Shown here: one piece after another, positions 5,351 through 55,180 of the stretch | Layout of the letters: each line of letters opens with the position of its first letter | How positions within the stretch are numbered: the stretch's first letter is position 1 | NCBI RefSeq assembly: GCF_032062135.1 | Contig: NC_092864.1 | Span: forward strand, 21,567,082-21,631,081 | DNA length: 64,000 nucleotides | Source: Pyxicephalus adspersus | Lineage: Eukaryota; Chordata; Amphibia; Anura; Pyxicephalidae | Reading direction: 5' to 3' | Made by a program: the position numbers and the translations under genes | The notes under the pieces: model-generated | The model's input: the letters and a program-made list of their open reading frames with translations, nothing else | What the model was told of the DNA's origin: nothing | Database searches by the model: none

Positions 5351-6183
5351 TTGGAATGTTCGACGCCCATTAAAGAACATATAGGGAGTGATTTTATTAG
5401 GAAGTTTAGGTTCTTCATTTACCAAATTAATTTATTACCTAGCAAGTTTGAAATTTACTTAGCTTAGTTAATACAGTGAAAATACACTTAATAAAAATAG
5501 GAAAAGCAGGATTTTTCCTTGTACATGATTGACATCAACCAAGTTTTATGAATGTTGCCTTTTTATTTAATAGGCTAATTGAAATATTTATCAGAAATTA
5601 ATATTTCACTTGGTAAGTGAACAGCCTATATTTCTTTAGTAAATCAACCCCATGGCATCAAATAGAATAGTTATTATTAGGTCATTTGCACTATGTGGCT
5701 TTTGTTTATTCTTGTACGCATTTTTGTTATTGTTTGCATTATTTTATTATGGTTTTCAATGGTAAAAATAGTAGGCAATTTGGTTTACAATCAATAATTT
5801 AAAAACAGAATAGAAATCTGATATTCACAAGTAAACCTAAAGTTAAAAAAAAACACATATGCTGCAGAATTAAATTATCACTTCTTTTCCTCATTTTTTT
5901 TAAGTCCCTATAAATACATTTTCATTATTCCAAGTAACCACATCTGTATATTAATATATTGGTGGTCAGATTTCAGCTACATATTGATGACTCCCAACTG
6001 TTGGAAAGAAGAAAGGAGAAACTATTTATACCCAAACACAGGCAAAATAAAACAAACAGCAAAAATAAAGCCTGGCCACTTGGCCTCTAACTCACTGTTA
6101 GATTCCTTTACTAACAATCCAGCCAAAGCTAGTCCTGTGCAGGACTCTAAGGCCCTAACCATACATATTTCCCAACAAAGTCT

Positions 6184-6280
6184 GGGCCTTTACTCACAGT
6201 TCACCTTGGGCCTTTACTCACAGTTCACCTTGGGCCTTTACTCACAGTTCACCTTGGGCCTTTACTCACAGTTCACCTTG
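6184..6280. repeat. 24-bp tandem repeat in the LTR, four units
   Basis: Four almost identical units of GGCCTTTACTCACAGTTCAC plus CTTG in a row. Tandem repeats in the U3 part of an LTR often act as enhancer modules; here that role is inference. The other LTR lacks the array. Confidence 0.9.
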
Positions 6281-6337
6281 GACCTCCTCCCAGCTCACCA
6301 GCCAAGAACAGAGCCACAAGAATAAGCAGGCTGGGAG

Positions 6338-6343
6338 TTTATA
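6338..6343 (-). promoter_or_regulatory. TATA-like box in the LTR
   Basis: Read on the minus strand the LTR contains GGGGATATAAACTCCC, with TATAAA between the 24-bp repeats and the element-side half, in a position suited to a U3 promoter. No transcription start can be seen. Confidence 0.35.
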
Positions 6344-6585
6344 TCCCCAGCCTAATTTCCAGGATGCATTTCAGGTGAAACAATTACACCTGATCATACC
6401 CCGGCCTCTTTAGCTCCCCCACCTGGCCAAGAAGCTCATTGTCGTTCAGCCGGTACTTCAGCACCCTCTTCAGGTCAAAGGGAAAACTATCTGACTAAAC
6501 AGAAAAATACTGTGCGTATAACCTGTATCTGGGGCAAATGTACCTGTCATCCTGGACTAAACCCTGTGATTTCTTTGGCCAGCTG

Positions 6586-7192
6586 TTACATACTCCCCCC
6601 TCTTGTTTCAACTTTAGGGTTGGGACACAGGCTGCCAGGTAAGTATGAACTCTGAGATAAAGCATCAGAATGCCCCATCTGTACACCAGGACGATGCTTG
6701 ACAGTAAAACTAAATTCTTGAAGGGCTAAAAACCATCTATTAACCCTCTTGTTAGTCTCCTTGTTTTGGGCCATCCACTTTAATGGGACATGATCGGTTA
6801 TTAGGAGAAACTGTCTGCCCAGCAGATAGTACCTCAAGGAATCAAGAGCCCACTTCACAGCCAAACATTCTTTTTCAATCGTAGCATAATTTAACTCATG
6901 GGCCTTTACCTTCCGACTGGGGTAAACAATGGGGTGTTCTTCCCCATTTTGAACCTGGGACAGCATTCCTCCTAGTCCAACATCGGACACATCCGTCTGC
7001 ACCAAAAACTCCTGAGAAAAGTCAGGGGAATATAGCACTGGTTCGCTACTCAAAGCCTTCTTTAATGCCCCACAATAGCCAGCGATCCGTGGCCAATTCT
7101 GGATGGCTTCCACTTTCTTTTCCTGAGGATTTATTATTTCTCTTCCAATGTGTATCCCAGGAATTTGGCTTCTTTCAGCCCAATAGCGCACT
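6586..7192 (-). pseudogene. RNase H end of pol
   Basis: This frame runs open for about 200 codons. It starts in the connection segment (EAIQNWPR) and continues into RNase H. The first acidic residue lies in QTDVSD, the second in IEKECLAVKWAL, and the third in ITDHVPLKW, which together are the expected D-E-D pattern for Ty3/Gypsy RNase H. It ends with VNRWFLALQEF and HRPGVQMGHSDALSQ, the usual RNase H tail, and stops inside the polypurine tract region. There is no integrase after it, which fits the Gmr1-like order. Part of the connection is missing: WPRIAGYCGALKKAL is shorter than usual between the two conserved blocks. Confidence 0.85.
6591..6607 (-). other. Polypurine tract
   Basis: On the minus strand the sequence immediately upstream of the 3' LTR is AAGAGGGGGGAGTA, a purine run ending at the LTR start TGTAACA. 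This is the plus-strand primer site expected for an LTR retrotransposon and confirms the minus-strand orientation and the LTR border at 6590. Confidence 0.75.
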
Positions 7193-7671
7193 TTTTAGGG
7201 TTTGCAACAAACCCAGGTTTCCTTAGCACGTTTAGCACTGCCTGAACCTTTACTAAATGCGAGGCTCAATCTACACTATCACCCGCTGGTATGCTGGAAA
7301 GTAGCTGGAGCATTCTGTAGTCCGAAGGGCATATTTCTATACTGGAATGCTCTGTCAGGGGTCACAAAAGCAGTTTTCTCCTTAGCTGACTCAGATAGAG
7401 GGATCTGCCAATATCCTTTGGTGAGATCCAAGGTGGTCATGTATCTAGCCTTCCCCAACCGATCAATCAACTCCTCTATCCGGGGCAAAGGATGGGTGTC
7501 AAACTTTATGTTCTCATTCAGCTTACGGTAATCATTGCAGAATCTCCAGCTTCCATCTGGTTGGGGAACTAACACAATTGGGCTGGACCAATCTCTATTG
7601 GAAGAATTTTCAAGAATTTTTTTAACTTCTTGATGTATTACCTCTAGTCTAGCGTCAGGAATTCGATAGGA
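7193..7671 (-). pseudogene. Reverse transcriptase fragment of pol
   Basis: The frame on the minus strand opens near 7671 with the YRIPDARLEVI and IVLVPQPDGSWRFCNDYRKLN blocks that begin Gypsy reverse transcriptases. It goes on through TTLDLTKGYWQIPL, which carries the first catalytic Asp, and FGLQNAPATFQ. Then it breaks: stops and a short deletion remove the segment that should hold the YxDD active-site motif. Sequence of the downstream part (ending in the NPKKCAIGLKEAKFLG-type block) resumes in another frame near 7250. Enzyme activity is therefore excluded for this copy. Confidence 0.85.
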
Positions 7672-8470
7672 ATTTTCGGTACGGCTTGGGTACCACTAGC
7701 TATTCAATGGTTTCCCACCCACTTTGTGACACCGGATAGAGTAGGTCCTTTTCAATAATAAAGTATGGGAATGACACTCTCTCGTCTGGGTGCACTAGGT
7801 TCCCATGATTTTTTACGGTATTATCCCGGGCTTTAAACAATGTGGGGTTTTTCAATTGCTCTGTAACAAAGTTTTCTCTATGTACCTGTAAGTCAGGGAA
7901 TTCCATGGTTTGCTGGCTTTCCTCCGAAGTTGCCAGTTCTTCCCTAGGGTTAACTGTTTCCACAGACAAAGGAAACCCCAGAGTTCCCCCACAATCATCA
8001 GAGGATTCCTCGGTAGCCTCATGCTCTGAGGATGCCGGTACTGCATGGGGTGGGTGATCCCACAGCTCCCAGAATTTGGGAAAATCCTTCCCAATGATAG
8101 CATCATATGGTAAGTGGGGAACCAATCCCACCTGATGACACAGTTTACCTAGGGAGGTTTCAAAAGACACTGACATCACAGAAAACTCCCTAGTATCGTG
8201 TGGACACATGTTACCCCCCACTGTTTTAAGACAGGAGGTCTCTGTAACAACTAGCTCAGCTTTCACTAGCGTTACCACACTACCTAAGTCTAACAGCTCC
8301 ATAATCGGTTTGGTATTCATAAACATTTTACACCAATATTTTTCATCGACCCGTATAGCAGGGCATGCAATGGTGGCAAAAAGAGACTGTCGTCTGCCAC
8401 TCAGAAAGTGACAGTGCATTGGTTCATCCACCACAGGGCAATTTGCAGCAATATGTGTTTCTTCCCGGTT
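7672..8470 (-). pseudogene. Zinc knuckle, protease and integrase stub
   Basis: A 244-codon open frame (8434 to 7700) with a degraded CCHC zinc knuckle just upstream (THIAANCPVVDEPMHC, first Cys pair lost). The retropepsin-like active site reads ELLDLGSVVTLV, so the usual DSG/DTG is DLG. A second conserved block, AIIGKDFPKFWELW, fits the flap-distal IIG motif. After an acidic linker the frame ends with FPYFIIEKDLLYPVSQ, which matches the stretch just before the HHCC zinc finger of integrase. A stop follows, and within about 25 codons the sequence jumps into reverse transcriptase. The integrase zinc finger and DDE core are missing. Confidence 0.75.
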
Positions 8471-8537
8471 ACTTTTACCTACAGCTGGGGATGGTCTGGT
8501 CTTGGGGTGGAAAGTCCGTGAGTACTGAAGGGAGGTG

Positions 8538-9330
8538 TTAATCTCTAAAAATTAGAGGTGTTAAATTCTCGGCAGCCACGTACCTTTCCACTAGGTCCAC
8601 CAGCTTGTCGGCTGTTGACGGGTCTCCATGGCTCACCCACTTTTGTATGGAAACAGGGAGGAATCTTAGAAACTGGTCCATGACTACCCGTTCCACAATT
8701 TGCAGCCCTGACAACAGCTCTGGTTGTAGCCACTTCCTTGTTAGATGTATCAGTTCATACATCTGGGATCTGGGAGGTTTTCCTACTCGATGGGACGAGT
8801 TATACACCTGTTGGACCCGGACAGCCAGGGTGACACCCAGCTGTGCCAGTATTTCTGCCTTAAGGCAGACATAGTCGCTTGCTTCCGACAGCTCTAGGTC
8901 ATAATAGGCTTTTTTGGACTCTCAAGATAATAGCAGGGCCACTAATCCTGCCCACTCTTGGCAGTTCTTTCAAATGTGGTCAAAAACACCTTCAGGATCA
9001 TCATCCACAGTCATTTTTGGCAATAAATGGCTTACCAGGCAAACTGGCGAATGCCCAGCACCACTCTTGGCGTCAGCCTGCTCTCGTAAAGAGATATCTG
9101 CTGTTTTAGTGCATCGAATTGTTGTTGGTAGCTTTTGTGCTTGTTTTTCCAACAATTCCTTGTGGCAGGCTTCCGCTTTTTCCAGACCTAGCAGCAATTG
9201 TTGGTTAGTATGCTGTTAGTTGGCACTGGCCTGCTGTTGGTTGGCATTTGCCAAAACAAGCTGTTTTAGTATCTCCTCCAGGCTGGCCTTACAAACACCC
9301 TTTTATAAAGCTGCCCACATCCTCCACGAT
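8538..9330 (-). pseudogene. gag with SCAN-like capsid segment
   Basis: Broken into two main frames (9197-8970 and 8807-8538), with remnants between them including the words AYYDLELSEASDY and LKAEILAQLGVTLAV. The best preserved part, about 8760-8560, reads RKWLQPELLSGLQIVERVV followed by MDQFLRFLPVSIQKWV. Its spacing of W-L-P, then a hydrophobic helix, then LP, then WV matches the SCAN domain of vertebrate zinc-finger proteins, which is known to derive from gag of Gmr1-like Gypsy elements. The N-terminal frame (9197-8970) is rich in Gln, Glu and Lys and could be coiled coil. Several stops make it a pseudogene. Confidence 0.8.
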
Positions 9331-9399
9331 ATGTGAGATCGCCTGTAGCAACAGGGGGCGTTTCAAACAGGAAACAGGGCCAGCAGGTTATCCGTGCAA

Positions 9400-9686
9400 C
9401 AATGTTTTTTTTTCACTAATACTATTTACACACAAAAACAGGCAAAATAAAGCAAACAGCAAAAATAAAGCTTAGCCACTTGGCCTCACTGTTAGATTCC
9501 TTTACTAACAATCCAGCCCAACCTAGTGCTGTACAGGACTCCAAGGCCCTAACCATACAGCTTTTCCAACAAAGTCCGAGTCTTTACCGACTAAACAGAA
9601 AAATACTTTGCGTATAACCTGTATCTGGGGCAAATGTACCTGTCATCCTGGACTAAACCCTGTGATTTCTTTGGCCAGCTGTTACA
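9400..9686 (-). repeat. 5' LTR of the Gypsy element, internally deleted
   Basis: Shares 9590-9686 and 9421-9590 with the left LTR but lacks the central 310 bp with the 24-bp repeats and TATA-like box. Without that segment it has no visible promoter. A clear primer-binding site (TGG start) is not visible next to it; the inner border near 9400 is uncertain. Confidence 0.75.
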
Positions 9687-9927
9687 ATATTTATATATAA
9701 TATATAAATTTATATTCTCTCTATGCAAATAATGTAGAGGGTAAGAACAACCAATTGGCCATACAAGACCCTTCTGTGACTCCTTGATTCTCACCTCCCA
9801 ATTTTTCAAATGGACAAGTGGATGTGCATTTCATGCAGTCCTTCCTGAACACTGAAAGTGATGTTTAAGGTCTGTCTAGCTCAACCCATTGGTGCTGGAA
9901 GTTTGCAGAATGCAGACCCACCAGTTA

Positions 9928-10679
9928 NNNNNNNNNNNNNNNNNNNNNNNNNNNNNNNNNNNNNNNNNNNNNNNNNNNNNNNNNNNNNNNNNNNNNNNNN
10001 NNNNNNNNNNNNNNNNNNNNNNNNNNNNNNNNNNNNNNNNNNNNNNNNNNNNNNNNNNNNNNNNNNNNNNNNNNNNNNNNNNNNNNNNNNNNNNNNNNNN
10101 NNNNNNNNNNNNNNNNNNNNNNNNNNNNNNNNNNNNNNNNNNNNNNNNNNNNNNNNNNNNNNNNNNNNNNNNNNNNNNNNNNNNNNNNNNNNNNNNNNNN
10201 NNNNNNNNNNNNNNNNNNNNNNNNNNNNNNNNNNNNNNNNNNNNNNNNNNNNNNNNNNNNNNNNNNNNNNNNNNNNNNNNNNNNNNNNNNNNNNNNNNNN
10301 NNNNNNNNNNNNNNNNNNNNNNNNNNNNNNNNNNNNNNNNNNNNNNNNNNNNNNNNNNNNNNNNNNNNNNNNNNNNNNNNNNNNNNNNNNNNNNNNNNNN
10401 NNNNNNNNNNNNNNNNNNNNNNNNNNNNNNNNNNNNNNNNNNNNNNNNNNNNNNNNNNNNNNNNNNNNNNNNNNNNNNNNNNNNNNNNNNNNNNNNNNNN
10501 NNNNNNNNNNNNNNNNNNNNNNNNNNNNNNNNNNNNNNNNNNNNNNNNNNNNNNNNNNNNNNNNNNNNNNNNNNNNNNNNNNNNNNNNNNNNNNNNNNNN
10601 NNNNNNNNNNNNNNNNNNNNNNNNNNNNNNNNNNNNNNNNNNNNNNNNNNNNNNNNNNNNNNNNNNNNNNNNNNNNNNN
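9928..10679. other. Assembly gap (752 N)
   Basis: Unresolved bases. The open frames that appear to cross it are artefacts. The flanks show no shared repeat unit that would explain the gap. Confidence 1.
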
Positions 10680-13630
10680 CCACTACCTTCCCTAACATTC
10701 GCCAACCAATCTGGACACTGCTCGGCAGTAGCTCTTGGCTAGTTGGTAGCATATAAGATGGGCAGTTTTACTACTGGCTAACTGTATTTAGGGGTGGCAC
10801 CTCCACTTACAAACACCAGCCAATGGAAACACTGCTTGCTATTTACATTAGCAATCTTGTTTCCAGGCAGTTATCATAAAGTTGGCAGCTCCAGCCAGTT
10901 GGGATGATCCATGATTTTTAACATCAGAGCCTAGTCTAAGGTTTGCATATTTTTCCAATCAAATGAACAATCTGCACGTTGTTTAGGTTTCTGTAATGCA
11001 TTTTGGTTCCTTCAGACAACACAAAAGCATACAGCAAGATTTATTGATTTATTTAGAATTGCTTCTAGTTAGTATGTTTAACTCTTAGACTTGGACTTGG
11101 ACTTAGGGGTTTTCTGTATCTTGCAATGACCTGGAGAATGTCTATGTACCTAATAAATCCAACAGTTAAGTAGCACATTTATATTATAATAAAGAATTAA
11201 TAACATAAGTGGTCTTGGTGAAGAAGTTTACCCACCATATTGAAAGATGGTGGCTGCTGTCTGAGGTGCTGAATGCCCTTCCATGGTACTGGATGAAGCT
11301 TACTTCTTAGGAAATGGTTTTAGAAAATCAATATACTTAAGTAAACACTGTAAGGTTTATTCTTCCATGCATGTTCCTTCTTCTATACATATTTTTTCTA
11401 TACATACCAGTAGCTGATTTAGTGCCCCCTCCCATTTGTTGTTCTATAGACTGTAACTATAGATGTTAGGGGCATCTCCAATGGAATTTCAGCCTGTGTG
11501 TATATCATTTAGCTATGTAGAGACTGCCTGCATAGGAAGGTGCTACATATGGTATAACATTTCAGGCCACCCCATTGAGACCCAAGCTAATGGCATTGAA
11601 GATTTTATCCCAGTTTATAACTAAGTGGACCAATATTGAAGGATTATGGAAGCTGCCATTGCTAACCCGGTTTTACAAAATTCTTCTTGCCTGGTTGTTT
11701 TTTGCTCCCCCCCCCCAATAACACCTTTTGAATCTGTGACCCACAATAAATATGCAGCTCAGATGTTCAGCAAATTGCCACTTATTTATCTGCATGCTTG
11801 TCTTCGGTGCATATCTGAAACTATTGAAACCAAAAGATCAGTTTTACATCAATTACTATTCTGTAGAATGAGTTCAGCAATGGAAGCCTACACCATCTCT
11901 CAGTGGTAGGTCAGCATTAAGGGCACAAGGAACGACTCCAGGACTCCAATATCCGAACGTAGCGGGTTCTAAAAAACGGGTGAGCCTAGAGCCAGAAAAC
12001 ACATGATCTGCATATTTACTTGGCGAGATTTTCAATACCTTTCAGATTAGTAGACTATCTATAGGGATTTAGCTAGTAAGGCAGCTATCTACATAAGGAT
12101 AAATATAAGAAGAAACTAAGAGCCTTGAGCAGATAGACTGCTTCCTCAATTTGTGTAAAAATGCAAATACATCAAGATTGTCTATTGTGCACATTCATTA
12201 TGCCAGCGATGTGGAATTATATAGATATCATTACTTAGAATATAAGGCTTGGCATGACTTGGAGGTACTTCACAAGATGAATTGCTGGAAATACTATAAG
12301 CAGTGGGGCATGACACCTGCCACTGGTTAGTATGATGTACTTTCAACAGCAAATTTACAGGCAAAGGCTAAAAAAATACGCACAGACCACTTTTACACCT
12401 ACAGAGCTGAGGATAACGGGTTACTAGAAAGCTTAATTGTGCAGTTACAGAGAGTGACATATTGTGGACAGAGGAGGAATTATTGTATCAGAGGTGTCAG
12501 TCATCATTCACAGACAGGTCAAGTGTCATGTGTTTTCACATTACACATAGCGGCTGACAGATTTCTGCGCTGTGCTGAAGCTTTTCCAGTGTTTTGTATA
12601 TAGTTATAGCTGGGAAATGACAAACTTTTTAACATATCAGAAAATTCAGAATAACATTTTTTTAATGTTGTGTATTGATGATGACATTGTGAGTTAAAAA
12701 AAAACAAAGAGGAAAATTTTAAATGACTAAACACATCTTGTTCTATGTTGTTACTGATTTCATTTCCAAGATAGGAAGCAAAGGTGCAGTACACAACCAC
12801 TGATCGTAGATCTGTGCCACCTCTAAATCATCAGATTACCATCAGCTCACGTGAAAGCAAATCATTAAATACCTATAGGAGATGAGACTTTTTTCTGCCC
12901 TAGTCCTACAATTGCCTGCTTATGAAGAGGTGTAAATATACAGAGAATATAAAATAAATATATTTTCCTATGCATGCAAAAGCTTTTGCTGCAGTAGTAA
13001 CTCCAATCCAGGCATTGTCCCTGCAATACCTTTTTCTGCCACTAGATGCCTTTAGTATGATGGTTAGAATCATATAATCCATTTCCTCTGAGCCAAGGTC
13101 ATCCTTGACCTGTCTCAGCCTGTGAGTAGACAGAGAATGGAGACACAGCACAGTGATAAACACAGGTCTCTGGACTTATCAGTACGTGGCTTGTTAGCAA
13201 GTAAACTGGTTGGCTTACTGTGCTGTGTCTTTCTTTCATGCTGTAGCCCTGTTACTAGGTTAAATTCAGGTACTTACTTTTAGAAAATATATTTGATGAT
13301 GTGTTATTGAATACAGAGCTGCGTTATTTTGGAGCTGAATTACTAAAGGAATACAGGTTGTTCATTTAGCAAAGCTTTTCTGATATAAGATGCCTGGGGT
13401 TTTGGACACTCACTATGTAATAACATAAAATATAAAACATATCATTTGGAAATTATTCCTGGAGCTTTAATTCCCTGATTTTGCCTAAACTGTGATGATG
13501 CCATCAATCTGTTGTAGTTTGGAGGAGTTCTTCATTCTTTGCTCTATTATTGCTCAGATTGCAACATTGTAACTTTGCAGCAAGTCACAAGGTGAGAGCC
13601 TGAAGAAGGGGCTAACCTCTATAGACATTG
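10680..13630. other. Spacer without recognised gene
   Basis: AT-rich DNA with short chance frames only. A C-run lies at about 11707-11716. No transposon ends, tandem arrays or splice-bounded frames were found. Confidence 0.45.
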
Positions 13631-25215: not shown

Positions 25216-25671
25216 CAGGTAGTCCCCGGGTTACATACGAGATAGGGACATAGGTTTGCTCTTAAGTTGAATTTGTATGTAAGTCAGAACAGGTACATTA
25301 TTTTAATAAATGCAAATAGGAGAGATGTTTGTCTCAACATAATATTTGGCAGTGAGGTGTCAGTTACTGTATAAAATCCTTGCTGTGAATTAATCACAAA
25401 CAAAACAAGAAAAAAAAAATTAAAGTTAAGGAGCAACATTAATTTCTGGAGCAAGCTGTGCTTTGATATGCAAAAAGAAACAACTGCATGGTTTGTCTTG
25501 GCCATTAAAAAGTTATAAAAGCTTCCAGAACAGCAAAAGATTTCTTCCGCAAGTCATGCAAACTGCCTCCCCCCTATCAAGTTTCCGTCCTGCACATGAA
25601 CGAGCAGGGAAGCCCCGTTCGTATCTAGGTGTTGTCCCTATGTTGGATGTCCTTAATTCGGAGACTACCTA
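25216..25671 (+). mobile_element. TA-flanked DNA transposon, copy A
   Basis: Begins CAGGTAGTCCCCGGGTTAC and ends with the inverted counterpart (GGAGACTACCTA). TA dinucleotides border it at both sides (25214-25215 and 25672-25673), as for Tc1/mariner/pogo-type elements. At 456 bp it has no transposase and is non-autonomous. It matches copy B over its full length in opposite orientation. Confidence 0.8.
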
Positions 25672-26941: not shown

Positions 26942-27394
26942 CATGTAGTCCCCAAGTTAAGGACATTCAACATACGGACGACTCCTAGATACAAACATGG
27001 CTTCCCTGTTTGTTCGTGTGCAGGATGGCGGGGAGGGAGCAGTTTGCATGATGGGCCGAAGAAGTCTTTTTCTGTTCTCCAACCTCTTGTAACTCTTTAA
27101 TGACCAACACAAACTCTGCAGTTGTTTCTTCTTGCATATCAAAGCACAGCTTGCTCCAGAAGTTAACGGATGTCTAGGCTCCATAAAGCTTTTTTTTTTT
27201 TTGCTTTGTTTGTGATTAACTCACAGTGAGGATTTCATACAGTAACTGACACCTCACTGCCTAATAATATGTTGTGACAAACATCTGTCCTAATTGCATT
27301 TATTAAAATAATGTACCTGTTCCAACCTACATACAAATTCAATTCAAGAACAAACCTACAATCCCTATCTCGCATGTAACCTGGGGACTACCTG
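26942..27394 (-). mobile_element. TA-flanked DNA transposon, copy B (inverted)
   Basis: Starts CATGTAGTCCCCAAG and ends GGGGACTACCTG followed by TA. Read on the minus strand it aligns with copy A, including GTTTGTC and AGGCAGTGAGGTGTCAGTTA. The TA on the left side is lost (AA). Confidence 0.8.
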
Positions 27395-49483: not shown

Positions 49484-50290
49484 CAACTGTTTCTGGTTTA
49501 CCCCTGAGGAAGAATGTATGCACCACTAAATTTAATAGATGATTCCACTTATTATGCCAATAAGTCAGCTTTAGTTTTACACTGAAATATAATACTGTAG
49601 CAAATTAGCAAGTTTTCTCTGCATATTAAATCACAGAAACAATTTGTAACTAAAAGCCTGCCAGCAAAGAAAGGTAAATGGACAAAGCATTAGCTGCAGG
49701 TTTGCCCACGTTCGTAAAAAGAGTTTTTTTCACGCTTTCACAGTATAACCTAACATGTGCCATTAAAAAGAAAAATCTCTAAAATTTAATTAGGCAACAT
49801 TTAAACTCTAAAATGCCCTTAAGCAAATTAATTCATGTGCATGTTCCTTTTGCAAGAACCATAAATGGATTTAAAACACTCACTTGAAATGCAAAAATAA
49901 AGTACTAGAAAATAAATTAGTTTATACTGATATTTTCTCTTCAGTTTTCATATAATGTCTTAGAGGTTTTATAAACTTCTTTTCACTTCTATGATATTAC
50001 AGGAAACTTTATAAAATGACGCAATTTACAAATGACCATTTAAAGAAACACTGGTGCACCCCAGTTGGAAATGAACATCCATTCAGGCAAACAGCCTACC
50101 TACAGCCTTTTTGCTTTTTCTCTTTGCATATTGCAGTGGACCAGCTTAAAATTTATTGTTCCTGCCATATTGCTGTTACAAGAAGTGAGAAGAAATGTTA
50201 AATATATTATTTTATAAGCTAACAAATGTACTCAAAATTAGACCTTTAAATTAGTGCAAATGATTAGAATATGCCACATCCCTTTCAATC

Positions 50291-50897
50291 TAACATTGCA
50301 AGACACTTTGTTTTGGCTGAGTCATTGGCTTTGGGACTTTTAAAGTATATAATATTTTTTGAACACTTCAAACAATATATTTAGAAATAATCTAATGATT
50401 TATTAATTTATAATTCATAAAACTTGGTTAAAAACATTACAAAAATCTAAAAGTTGGTACATATTAAATCCAGAGGTTGGTACATAATAAATAGGCTAAT
50501 GATATATCGACGCGTTTCTCAGAACAAAGTCCGCTTCATCAGGAGTTCATTAGCTGCTATCAATTGAGATGTCTATTTTCTGGATAAATAAGTTGCAGGA
50601 TCAATCAATACAGATATCCTATATCAGGTTAGTACAGGCTACACAGGCTATGCAATCCTTTCCAAACTAGTAATTTTCGTATTCCAATGTTAAGTGGATG
50701 TCCTATTAGGATTTGGTTCCAGGATAAGTTTGTTTACCTGCTGATCAACTTTTGGATTTGTGTGATGTTTTTAACCAAGTTTTATGAATTTTAAATGAAA
50801 AAATCATTGGATTATTTCTAAATATATTGTTTGAGGTGTTCAAAATGACCCAAAATGGGCCAATGACCCAGCCAAAACACAATGTTTTGCAATGTTA
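50291..50897. mobile_element. Fold-back element with 160-bp arms
   Basis: Left arm (50291-50458) starts TAACATTGCAAGACAC. The right arm (50740-50897) is its inverted copy ending GCAATGTTA; both hold TAAAACTTGGTTAAAAACAT-type and AACAATATATTTAGAAATAA sequence. Arms agree at roughly 85% by eye. The 280-bp loop contains the hammerhead-like motif. No clear target duplication. Confidence 0.75.
50495..50554 (-). ncRNA. Hammerhead-ribozyme-like motif (type I layout)
   Basis: On the minus strand the core box CUGAUGA lies at 50542-50536 and the GAAA box at 50518-50515, followed by the palindrome ACGCGU and then C at 50509, the expected cleavage position. Stem I: GCUAAUG (50554-50548) pairs perfectly with CAUUAGC (50501-50495), and two further pairs (C-G, U-A) sit next to the core after a 3x5 internal loop. 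Stem II (50535-50519) keeps four pairs around a UUU loop, but the pairs nearest the core are mismatched and one extra A follows CUGAUGA. A self-complementary stem III too short for a monomer is typical of hammerheads in Penelope-like elements, which are thought to act as dimers. Activity of this copy is doubtful because of stem II. Confidence 0.6.
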
Positions 50898-50952
50898 TAT
50901 TATTTTATAGGATGTATCTGCAAAAATGCAGCCTAGTTAATATAAACTCTAC

Positions 50953-51441
50953 CCAATTTGGGCTCTATGCCAGCTTTAAGAAAAAGAGGGTGGCATAATA
51001 TCCAACAAGATACTGCCCTAAATCAATATATAAATGGTCCATATAGTGAACTCTCTACTTTATTATTCAATTTAAGGACATTACATTTCTGGATAAGGAA
51101 GAGATTCTTCACAGTAAACTCTGTGAAAATGTGGAATAGGCTCCCTCAAGAAGTAATTTGAGCAAGTAATATAGATTGCTTAAAGAATAAATACTTAGAA
51201 GCACAGAATATAACTGGGTAATAAAGTTTTAAAGTAAAGATAACAGAGACTTTTTATGCAGAGAACATCTTATTGTCTTACAAGATCCCCTGTTGGAACA
51301 AATCGAACCAGGGTTTTTTTTTACCTCCCTCTGGATCACTTATGTCTATAGGATTTTTATGTGGAATATGTTTATTTGTGGTTGAACTTGATGGACTTAT
51401 GTCTTTGTTCAACCTTACTGACTATATGTAACTATGTAACT
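50953..51441 (+). mobile_element. LINE 3' end (CR1/L2/Rex-like C-terminus)
   Basis: The frame ending near 51161 reads RKRFFTVNSVKMWNRLPQEV, the conserved tail of non-LTR reverse-transcriptase proteins of the CR1/L2 group (F-F-x3-V-x3-WN-x-LP-x-EV). A stop follows, then the well-spread amphibian 3' sequence with GTTGAACTTGATGGACTT and a terminal run of short TAACTATGTAAC repeats. Only the last part of the protein is present, so this is a 5'-truncated insertion. The exact clade is not certain. Confidence 0.6.
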
Positions 51442-52338: not shown

Positions 52339-52701
52339 TCTGTTTTTGTTTTTGTACCTGTTTTTACATTTTTGGCACTCATGTTTCCAGTTTTCACTGC
52401 AGTCTTACAATACACATTAAGGTAGAAGGCTTTTTTTTCTAATCATTTGCACTACCTTTTGCTTTTTCTAACTTGAGCTTATTATTGCTTTGCTGAATTT
52501 AGAGCAGACATACATTGCGGGTCTTCAGTTGTCTTTGTGCTTCTGGTGTGCCCCTGAGTCTTTATAGAGGAATAGCCCACCTTCAATCCATGTATATATG
52601 CATTGCTATATATATATGTCACAATTTGGATGTTGAGTTAGGGTCTGCAATTTTCAGAGTGGTCATGATGCAGCAGCATGGCTGCAATTTACCTTACCCA
52701 T

Positions 52702-54859: not shown

Positions 54860-55180
54860 TTGTTGTAAAGATTTCAGAGAAAACCATGACCAGCAATAAT
54901 AAGAAATTCTAAAGTGTCCAATTTTAATCCCATGCTACAGAGAGGCTTAACTTGGAGTTGGCAGTTGCCTAATTTGAGTATATTGATTTCCAAGTGCTGC
55001 GAGAAAGGTGATTGCCAACAAAAGCAAAGACAAAAACACAAACTAATTAATGTGAAGTCACTGATTAAGTGAATAACATTGTTTAAATGCATGAGAAGCA
55101 AGGCGGCAGCTTTTGTGACTATTTCACTTGAAATTGCTGTAAGTGGGTGTTTTTCAATCAAGGCTGTTTATTCTAAACTG
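54860..55180. other. Conserved-noncoding-like island
   Basis: Repeat-poor block with ACTAATTAATGTGAAGTCAC, TGATTAAGTGAATAAC and AACATTGTTTAAATGC. An unusual density of homeodomain and SOX-type words. Inference only. Confidence 0.35.

Follow-up and report, generated by a model that had tools for sequence, protein, structure and literature searches.

Metazoan genomes hold thousands of dispersed minimal type I hammerhead ribozymes, in which helix III is largely missing and which also occur in some Penelope pseudo-long terminal repeats (pseudo-LTRs); according to passages of the source that describes them, their role is still unknown (PMC7761336). In amphibians, passages of PMC7229834 describe type I hammerheads of satellite DNA and retrozymes, including a newt satellite and axolotl HHR_Amex1, in which helix III is one pair with a palindromic tetraloop as its cap. 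Hammerheads on interspersed repeats are also reported for Xenopus in parts of PMC3088659, where U.U at the base of stem II gave more cleavage than other mispaired combinations. The Penelope-type minimal hammerheads (Lunse et al. 2017, as rendered in citing papers) combine common core boxes and a scant helix III with self-complementarity suited to dimers and a place in repetitive DNA, and dimer formation by hammerheads, in the excerpted account of PMC6466107, depends on the stem III loop containing a palindrome and, in eukaryotes, also on copies arranged in tandem (additional background in excerpts of PMC6155905, PMC6431247 and PMC11620745). Here we describe a hammerhead-like site at 50495-50554, on the minus strand of a 64,000-nucleotide (nt) stretch of the frog Pyxicephalus adspersus (contig NC_092864.1, positions 21,567,082 to 21,631,081), the whole of which is called the window below. 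We favor, at a probability of roughly 0.58, the reading that this site is the relic of a minimal type I hammerhead of the animal-retroelement kind, either Penelope-like or an amphibian-type retrozyme, lying between the arms of an inverted repeat.

Read directly in the minus-strand sense, positions 50554-50495 run GCUAAUGA-AC-UC-CUGAUGA-AGCGGACUUUGUUCUGA-GAA-A-CGCG-U-C-GA-UAUA-UCAUUAGC; Table 1 lists the parts in that sense, with letters taken directly from the sequence. All letters of the type I core are present (C3-U-G-A-N-G-A9, G12-A-A14, A15.1-U16.1 and H17). The sequence and a pattern search bear out the order and spacing that the original prediction had given for CUGAUGA, a hairpin, GAAA, ACGCGU and a C, and C17 does lie at 50509, the cleavage position it had proposed. 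Stem I closes the open end with 8 perfect outer pairs (50495-50502 with 50547-50554) and 2 possible inner pairs, the outer and inner parts being separated by an internal loop of 2+4 nt. The predicted asymmetric loop is therefore found, and the outer stem is as perfect and as independent of the core boxes as had been claimed, with a length of 8 pairs and not the 7 originally counted.

Helix III is a single A-U pair (15.1-16.1) with a palindromic CGCG cap. Taking the pair to be 15.1-16.1, this is the one-pair helix III with a palindromic tetraloop seen in the amphibian retrozymes, with which the site also shares the type I stem order (passages of PMC7229834). Unlike the newt and axolotl hammerheads, the site does not belong to a tandem array of repeats of about 330-350 bp, as no direct copy lies in the window, and the base of its stem II is mispaired. 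A-CGCG-U also provides the minimal helix III and dimer-capable palindrome of the Penelope type, from which the site differs in that no Penelope gene or pair of pseudo-LTRs was seen here, in its position between inverted arms and, again, in its stem II. The order of the core boxes is shared with Rfam RF00163 Hammerhead_1 and with the phage type I hammerheads that we collected, whereas those have a core-paired stem II (a demand of the search pattern) and form several pairs in helix III, and the window site does not score against them. The self-duplex of ACGCGU is predicted at -7.5 kcal/mol. ACGCGT at 50510 is the only one in the 64-kb window, where the observed/expected ratio of CpG is 0.25; four of the five CpGs in the 289-nt centre between the inverted arms fall within the motif, and the two arms hold none.

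The motif is real, and chance does not readily account for it. The pattern CTGANGA-N6-30-GAAACGCGT has one match in the 64 kb and none in 100 dinucleotide shuffles. A broad descriptor (CUGANGA, a gap of 8-30, GAA, A-palindrome-U and H) occurs 1.14 times per window-sized first-order Markov sequence (400 sequences) and at four sites in the real window, the other three of which have outer stems of 3; once an outer stem I of at least 7 and a hairpin of at least 4 are added, it does not occur in any of the 400 Markov sequences. The probability of an outer stem of at least 8 is 0.0019 (200,000 draws) and that of a hairpin of at least 4 is 0.45 (40,000 draws), and the product of the frequencies predicts about 0.001 complete sites in 64 kb, falling to 0.00004 when the interior of the palindrome is at least 4; these figures flatter the motif, as the descriptor was framed after the motif was seen and the true surprise is smaller. 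The low chance figure counts for a relic, as do the core letters with their independent stem I, the fit of helix III to the published amphibian form, the published abundance of minimal type I motifs in metazoans and the concentration of the CpGs of the centre in the motif.

The motif sits between the arms of an inverted repeat of about 600 bp (Table 1), which a gapped alignment stretches outward, weakly, to 50207 and 50984. The region 50270-50920 folds as one long hairpin in which the outer stem I of the motif is kept (z -14.9 against 20 shuffles, driven by the arms). A search for target-site duplications around the inverted repeat found exact matches of 5-7 nt only, none of them symmetrical at the arm ends, and the only further match to the motif region in the window, besides itself and the inverted arms, is one of 18 nt at 52437-52454. 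Another possibility considered was that a palindromic element had received a solo Penelope pseudo-LTR, which would now make up the 289-nt centre. Passages of PMC3846280 put pseudo-LTRs at 181 to 218 bp, similar in magnitude to this centre, and describe Penelope copies that show inverted repeats arranged head to head, with palindromes where they join.

Several results weigh against the reading as a hammerhead relic, beginning with stem II and the predicted folds. Stem II does not pair directly on the core (10.1-11.1) in either of its registers: in the register of the original prediction (A), four pairs are cut off from the core by A.A, G.G and C.U, and in a second, more stable register (B), an unpaired A and a G.A mismatch lie at the core side. 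These mispairs lend support to the earlier suspicion of a weak or dead copy, and the mispaired base was also counted as decay in favor of a relic. Fold energies, which leave out hammerhead tertiary contacts, are -8.3 (register B) or -5.7 (register A) kcal/mol for the hammerhead-shaped monomer against a minimum of -14.4, which leaves the best hammerhead-shaped fold 6 kcal/mol short of a minimum that is itself not hammerhead-shaped. Pair probabilities in the 62-nt fold are 0.95-1.0 for outer stem I and 0.018 for inner stem I, and those of stem II in the monomer fold are 0.13-0.15 in register B and 0.005-0.019 in register A. A 72-nt fold is not unusually stable (z -1.46, with 14 of 200 shuffles as good). 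With two copies the predicted minimum is -34.7 kcal/mol, compared to -28.8 for two monomers; in this structure the ACGCGU boxes and the outer stems I pair between the copies, a feature counted for a relic, and the core is pulled into another, non-hammerhead hairpin. The hammerhead-shaped dimers reach -24.5 (register B), -22.5 (register A) and -27.3 kcal/mol (register B without inner stem I).

The covariance models belong on the same side. Rfam at the gathering threshold had no match in the whole window, and its hammerhead families, which expect a longer helix III, had none at E ≤ 10 in 2,001 nt and 121 nt around the motif, which is the outcome that the original prediction had itself named as speaking against it. 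As controls, phage hammerheads were fetched by a stem II pattern from at least 120 contigs, and a filter for pairing in stems I and III yielded, among the matches listed, 84 distinct type I-like sequences. On 11 control loci, Rfam at gathering gave 14 matches (12 transfer RNAs, one Hammerhead_1 in L077 and one Hammerhead_II in L069) and overlooked pattern-defined hammerheads in others of these loci, such as L033 and L054, which indicates that its threshold is strict. A first alignment (A1) took in 35 of the 84 phage sequences, but their helix III lengths differ and shift stem I out of register, so it was set aside; a type I covariance model, R1, was built from an alignment (A2) of 17 of the 84 that share one helix III length. 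In A2, 99.2% of 255 cells are paired and there are 68 double-sided changes against 20.1 in shuffles, counts that are inflated, since the filter had already selected the 84 sequences for pairing in stems I and III and the pattern used to fetch them leaves little of stem II free to vary. Applied to 22 control loci, R1 reported 48 matches with E ≤ 1, of which 45 had E below 0.01 and 42, two of them training sequences, had E below 1e-3. Run on the window with filters off, it gave 22 matches at E ≤ 10, the best at 12.3 bits, and the motif was absent from them. As both R1 and Rfam expect a longer helix III and a core-stacked stem II, these misses weigh against a standard hammerhead and less against a minimal or decayed one; the helix III length expected by both models means that they weaken a working ribozyme more than a relic.

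Relatives and companion genes were also sought, and here too the results count against the relic reading. No relative of the motif was found in viral and prokaryotic contig collections, though few eukaryotic repeats are expected there. A stricter pattern matched no viral contigs and two prokaryotic contigs, the latter by pattern alone. The 16 sites found with a looser motif in 16 viral contigs, and all 10 sites found with two CGCG-type motifs in 2 and 8 viral contigs, were rejected on inspection by eye, looking like coding DNA that lacks paired stems; several of these rejected viral sites (26 in all) are near-identical copies of one site. The 41-residue translation across the motif had no protein sharing three 5-residue words with it, and among 19 papers whose text contains at least one of five short strings from the motif, none was titled for hammerheads. 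A Pfam scan covered 17 (7 + 10) of the open reading frames (ORFs) in the window. Among these 17 there is no Penelope gene, which would combine reverse transcriptase with GIY-YIG, and no GIY-YIG domain at all; the sole reverse transcriptase, at 7282-7695, lies in an apparent Gypsy-type element. The scanned ORFs within 1 kb of the motif had no family match, and ORF 54877-55167 has a sub-threshold match to CCER1 (E 0.05). With no Penelope gene in the scanned ORFs and no tandem copy in the window, the Penelope link drawn earlier stays unproven, and filing the motif under Penelope is, on our analysis, plausible.

A chance resemblance, in which an unrelated repeat happens to hold CUGAUGA, GAAACGCGUC and a short hairpin, strikes us as rather unlikely, if by some way the most serious of the competing explanations. 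It would sit comfortably with the absence of the site from the matches of both hammerhead covariance models (Rfam and R1), with the misfit of stem II and the weak z-score of the fold, and with the fact that the site was picked from the whole window and its descriptor framed post hoc; looser hammerhead-like strings, moreover, arise about once per 64 kb by chance, and the real window has 4. Such a coincidence is harder to reconcile with the full combination, expected at about 0.001 per 64 kb and at 0.00004 with a palindrome of at least 4, with an ACGCGT that is unique in a CpG-poor window, and with a stem I that is independent of the boxes. The form of helix III would also suit a monomer of an amphibian satellite-type retrozyme of the newt and axolotl kind, spreading via small circular RNA, but the 330-350-bp tandem repeat of such elements is absent and, inverted arms aside, only the 18-nt match lies elsewhere in the window, and we regard this origin as improbable. 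Slightly less credible still is a working minimal Penelope-like hammerhead, active as a dimer or with the protein of its element in the manner reported for the Poseidon element of Anolis. Passages of PMC11167929 report that the Anolis Penelope ribozyme gave no cleavage unless protein was added, but the 17 scanned ORFs hold no Penelope gene, the window holds no tandem copy, and the mispair at the base of stem II is A.A, whereas U.U is the best-cleaving one in the portion of PMC3088659 that deals with such mispairs. Lowest in our estimation is a hammerhead travelling not in a retroelement but as the loop of a foldback or miniature DNA-transposon-like inverted-repeat element, whose arms would fold into a long hairpin RNA with the motif at its apex, where a cut would open the hairpin; this concerns the vehicle and is compatible with both a relic and a working ribozyme.

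If the site is, as we favor, the relic of a minimal type I hammerhead, stem I of its working ancestor would have folded around the core, and the self-complementarity of ACGCGU would have paired two copies in a tandem RNA, each being cut after its own C17. Going by the published mechanism, such cuts would have given unit-length RNA with 5'-hydroxyl and cyclic-phosphate ends. The present copy is probably inactive: mispairs sit at the base of its stem II, the predicted fold diverts the core, and there is no second copy in the window with which it could form a dimer.

Table 1. Parts of the hammerhead-like motif and of its inverted-repeat setting (positions in the window; motif parts in minus-strand sense)
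Feature	Position	Strand	Basis
Outer stem I, 5' strand GCUAAUGA	50547..50554	-	sequence; fold
Stem I internal loop, 5' side AC	50545..50546	-	sequence; fold
Inner stem I, 5' strand UC	50543..50544	-	sequence; fold
Core box CUGAUGA (C3 to A9)	50536..50542	-	sequence; pattern search
Stem II stretch AGCGGACUUUGUUCUGA, with two alternative 4-bp registers	50519..50535	-	fold
Core box G12 A13 A14 (GAA)	50516..50518	-	sequence; pattern search
A15.1-CGCG-U16.1, self-complementary ACGCGU, helix III (A 50515, CGCG 50514-50511, U 50510)	50510..50515	-	sequence
C17, expected cleavage position; putative cut between 50509 and 50508	50509	-	motif position; cleavage inferred
Inner stem I, 3' strand GA, possible partner of 50543-50544	50507..50508	-	sequence
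Stem I internal loop, 3' side UAUA	50503..50506	-	sequence; fold
Outer stem I, 3' strand UCAUUAGC	50495..50502	-	sequence; fold
Left arm of long inverted repeat	50287..50456		78.7% over 174-column alignment; 100 nt at 92%, 43 nt at 88%
Right arm of the same inverted repeat	50746..50901		same alignments as left arm
Tandem pair of 23-nt units close to the motif, on its 3' side in minus-strand sense	50443..50488		83% identical; also 50443-50492, 2.2 copies

The window and the control collection also gave observations in their own right. ORF 50946-51161, on the plus strand, contains FFTVNSVKMWNRLPQEV and has no Pfam match; it is reminiscent of the tail of a non-LTR retrotransposon protein. The Gypsy-type LTR element lies at 6021-9686 on the minus strand, with reverse transcriptase, RNase H and SCAN domains by Pfam, and is flanked by direct repeats (6021-6590 and 9421-9686) whose matching pieces, 67 to 103 nt long, agree at 89-99%. 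Its SCAN domain and the CpG depletion of the window point to a vertebrate host. Its RNase H piece matches 89 proteins, the named ones being mostly from turtles and fishes, with one from a bee and one from a bacterial bin. Beside it is an assembly gap, an N run at about 9900-10680 (752 N in the window). A second long inverted repeat, at 25251-25574 and 27031-27358 (169 nt at 90%, 136 nt at 85%), measures about 2.1 kb end to end and is DNA-transposon-like. In the phage contigs L033, L041, L045, L054 and L073 (IMG/VR), several R1 type I matches follow one another on the same strand at spacings of a few hundred bases, with seven between 8689 and 13235 in L045. Six of the 23 sites checked in these five contigs are off any ORF of at least 60 amino acids, 10 overlap one partly and 7 lie wholly inside a possible ORF.

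One more minimal hammerhead that is likely dead adds little alone, thousands having already been published in metazoans. The finding would become important if the inverted repeat turned out to represent a family whose loop carries a conserved ribozyme, because retroelements, circular RNAs and a few host introns are the settings of the animal hammerheads described in the published passages cited here.
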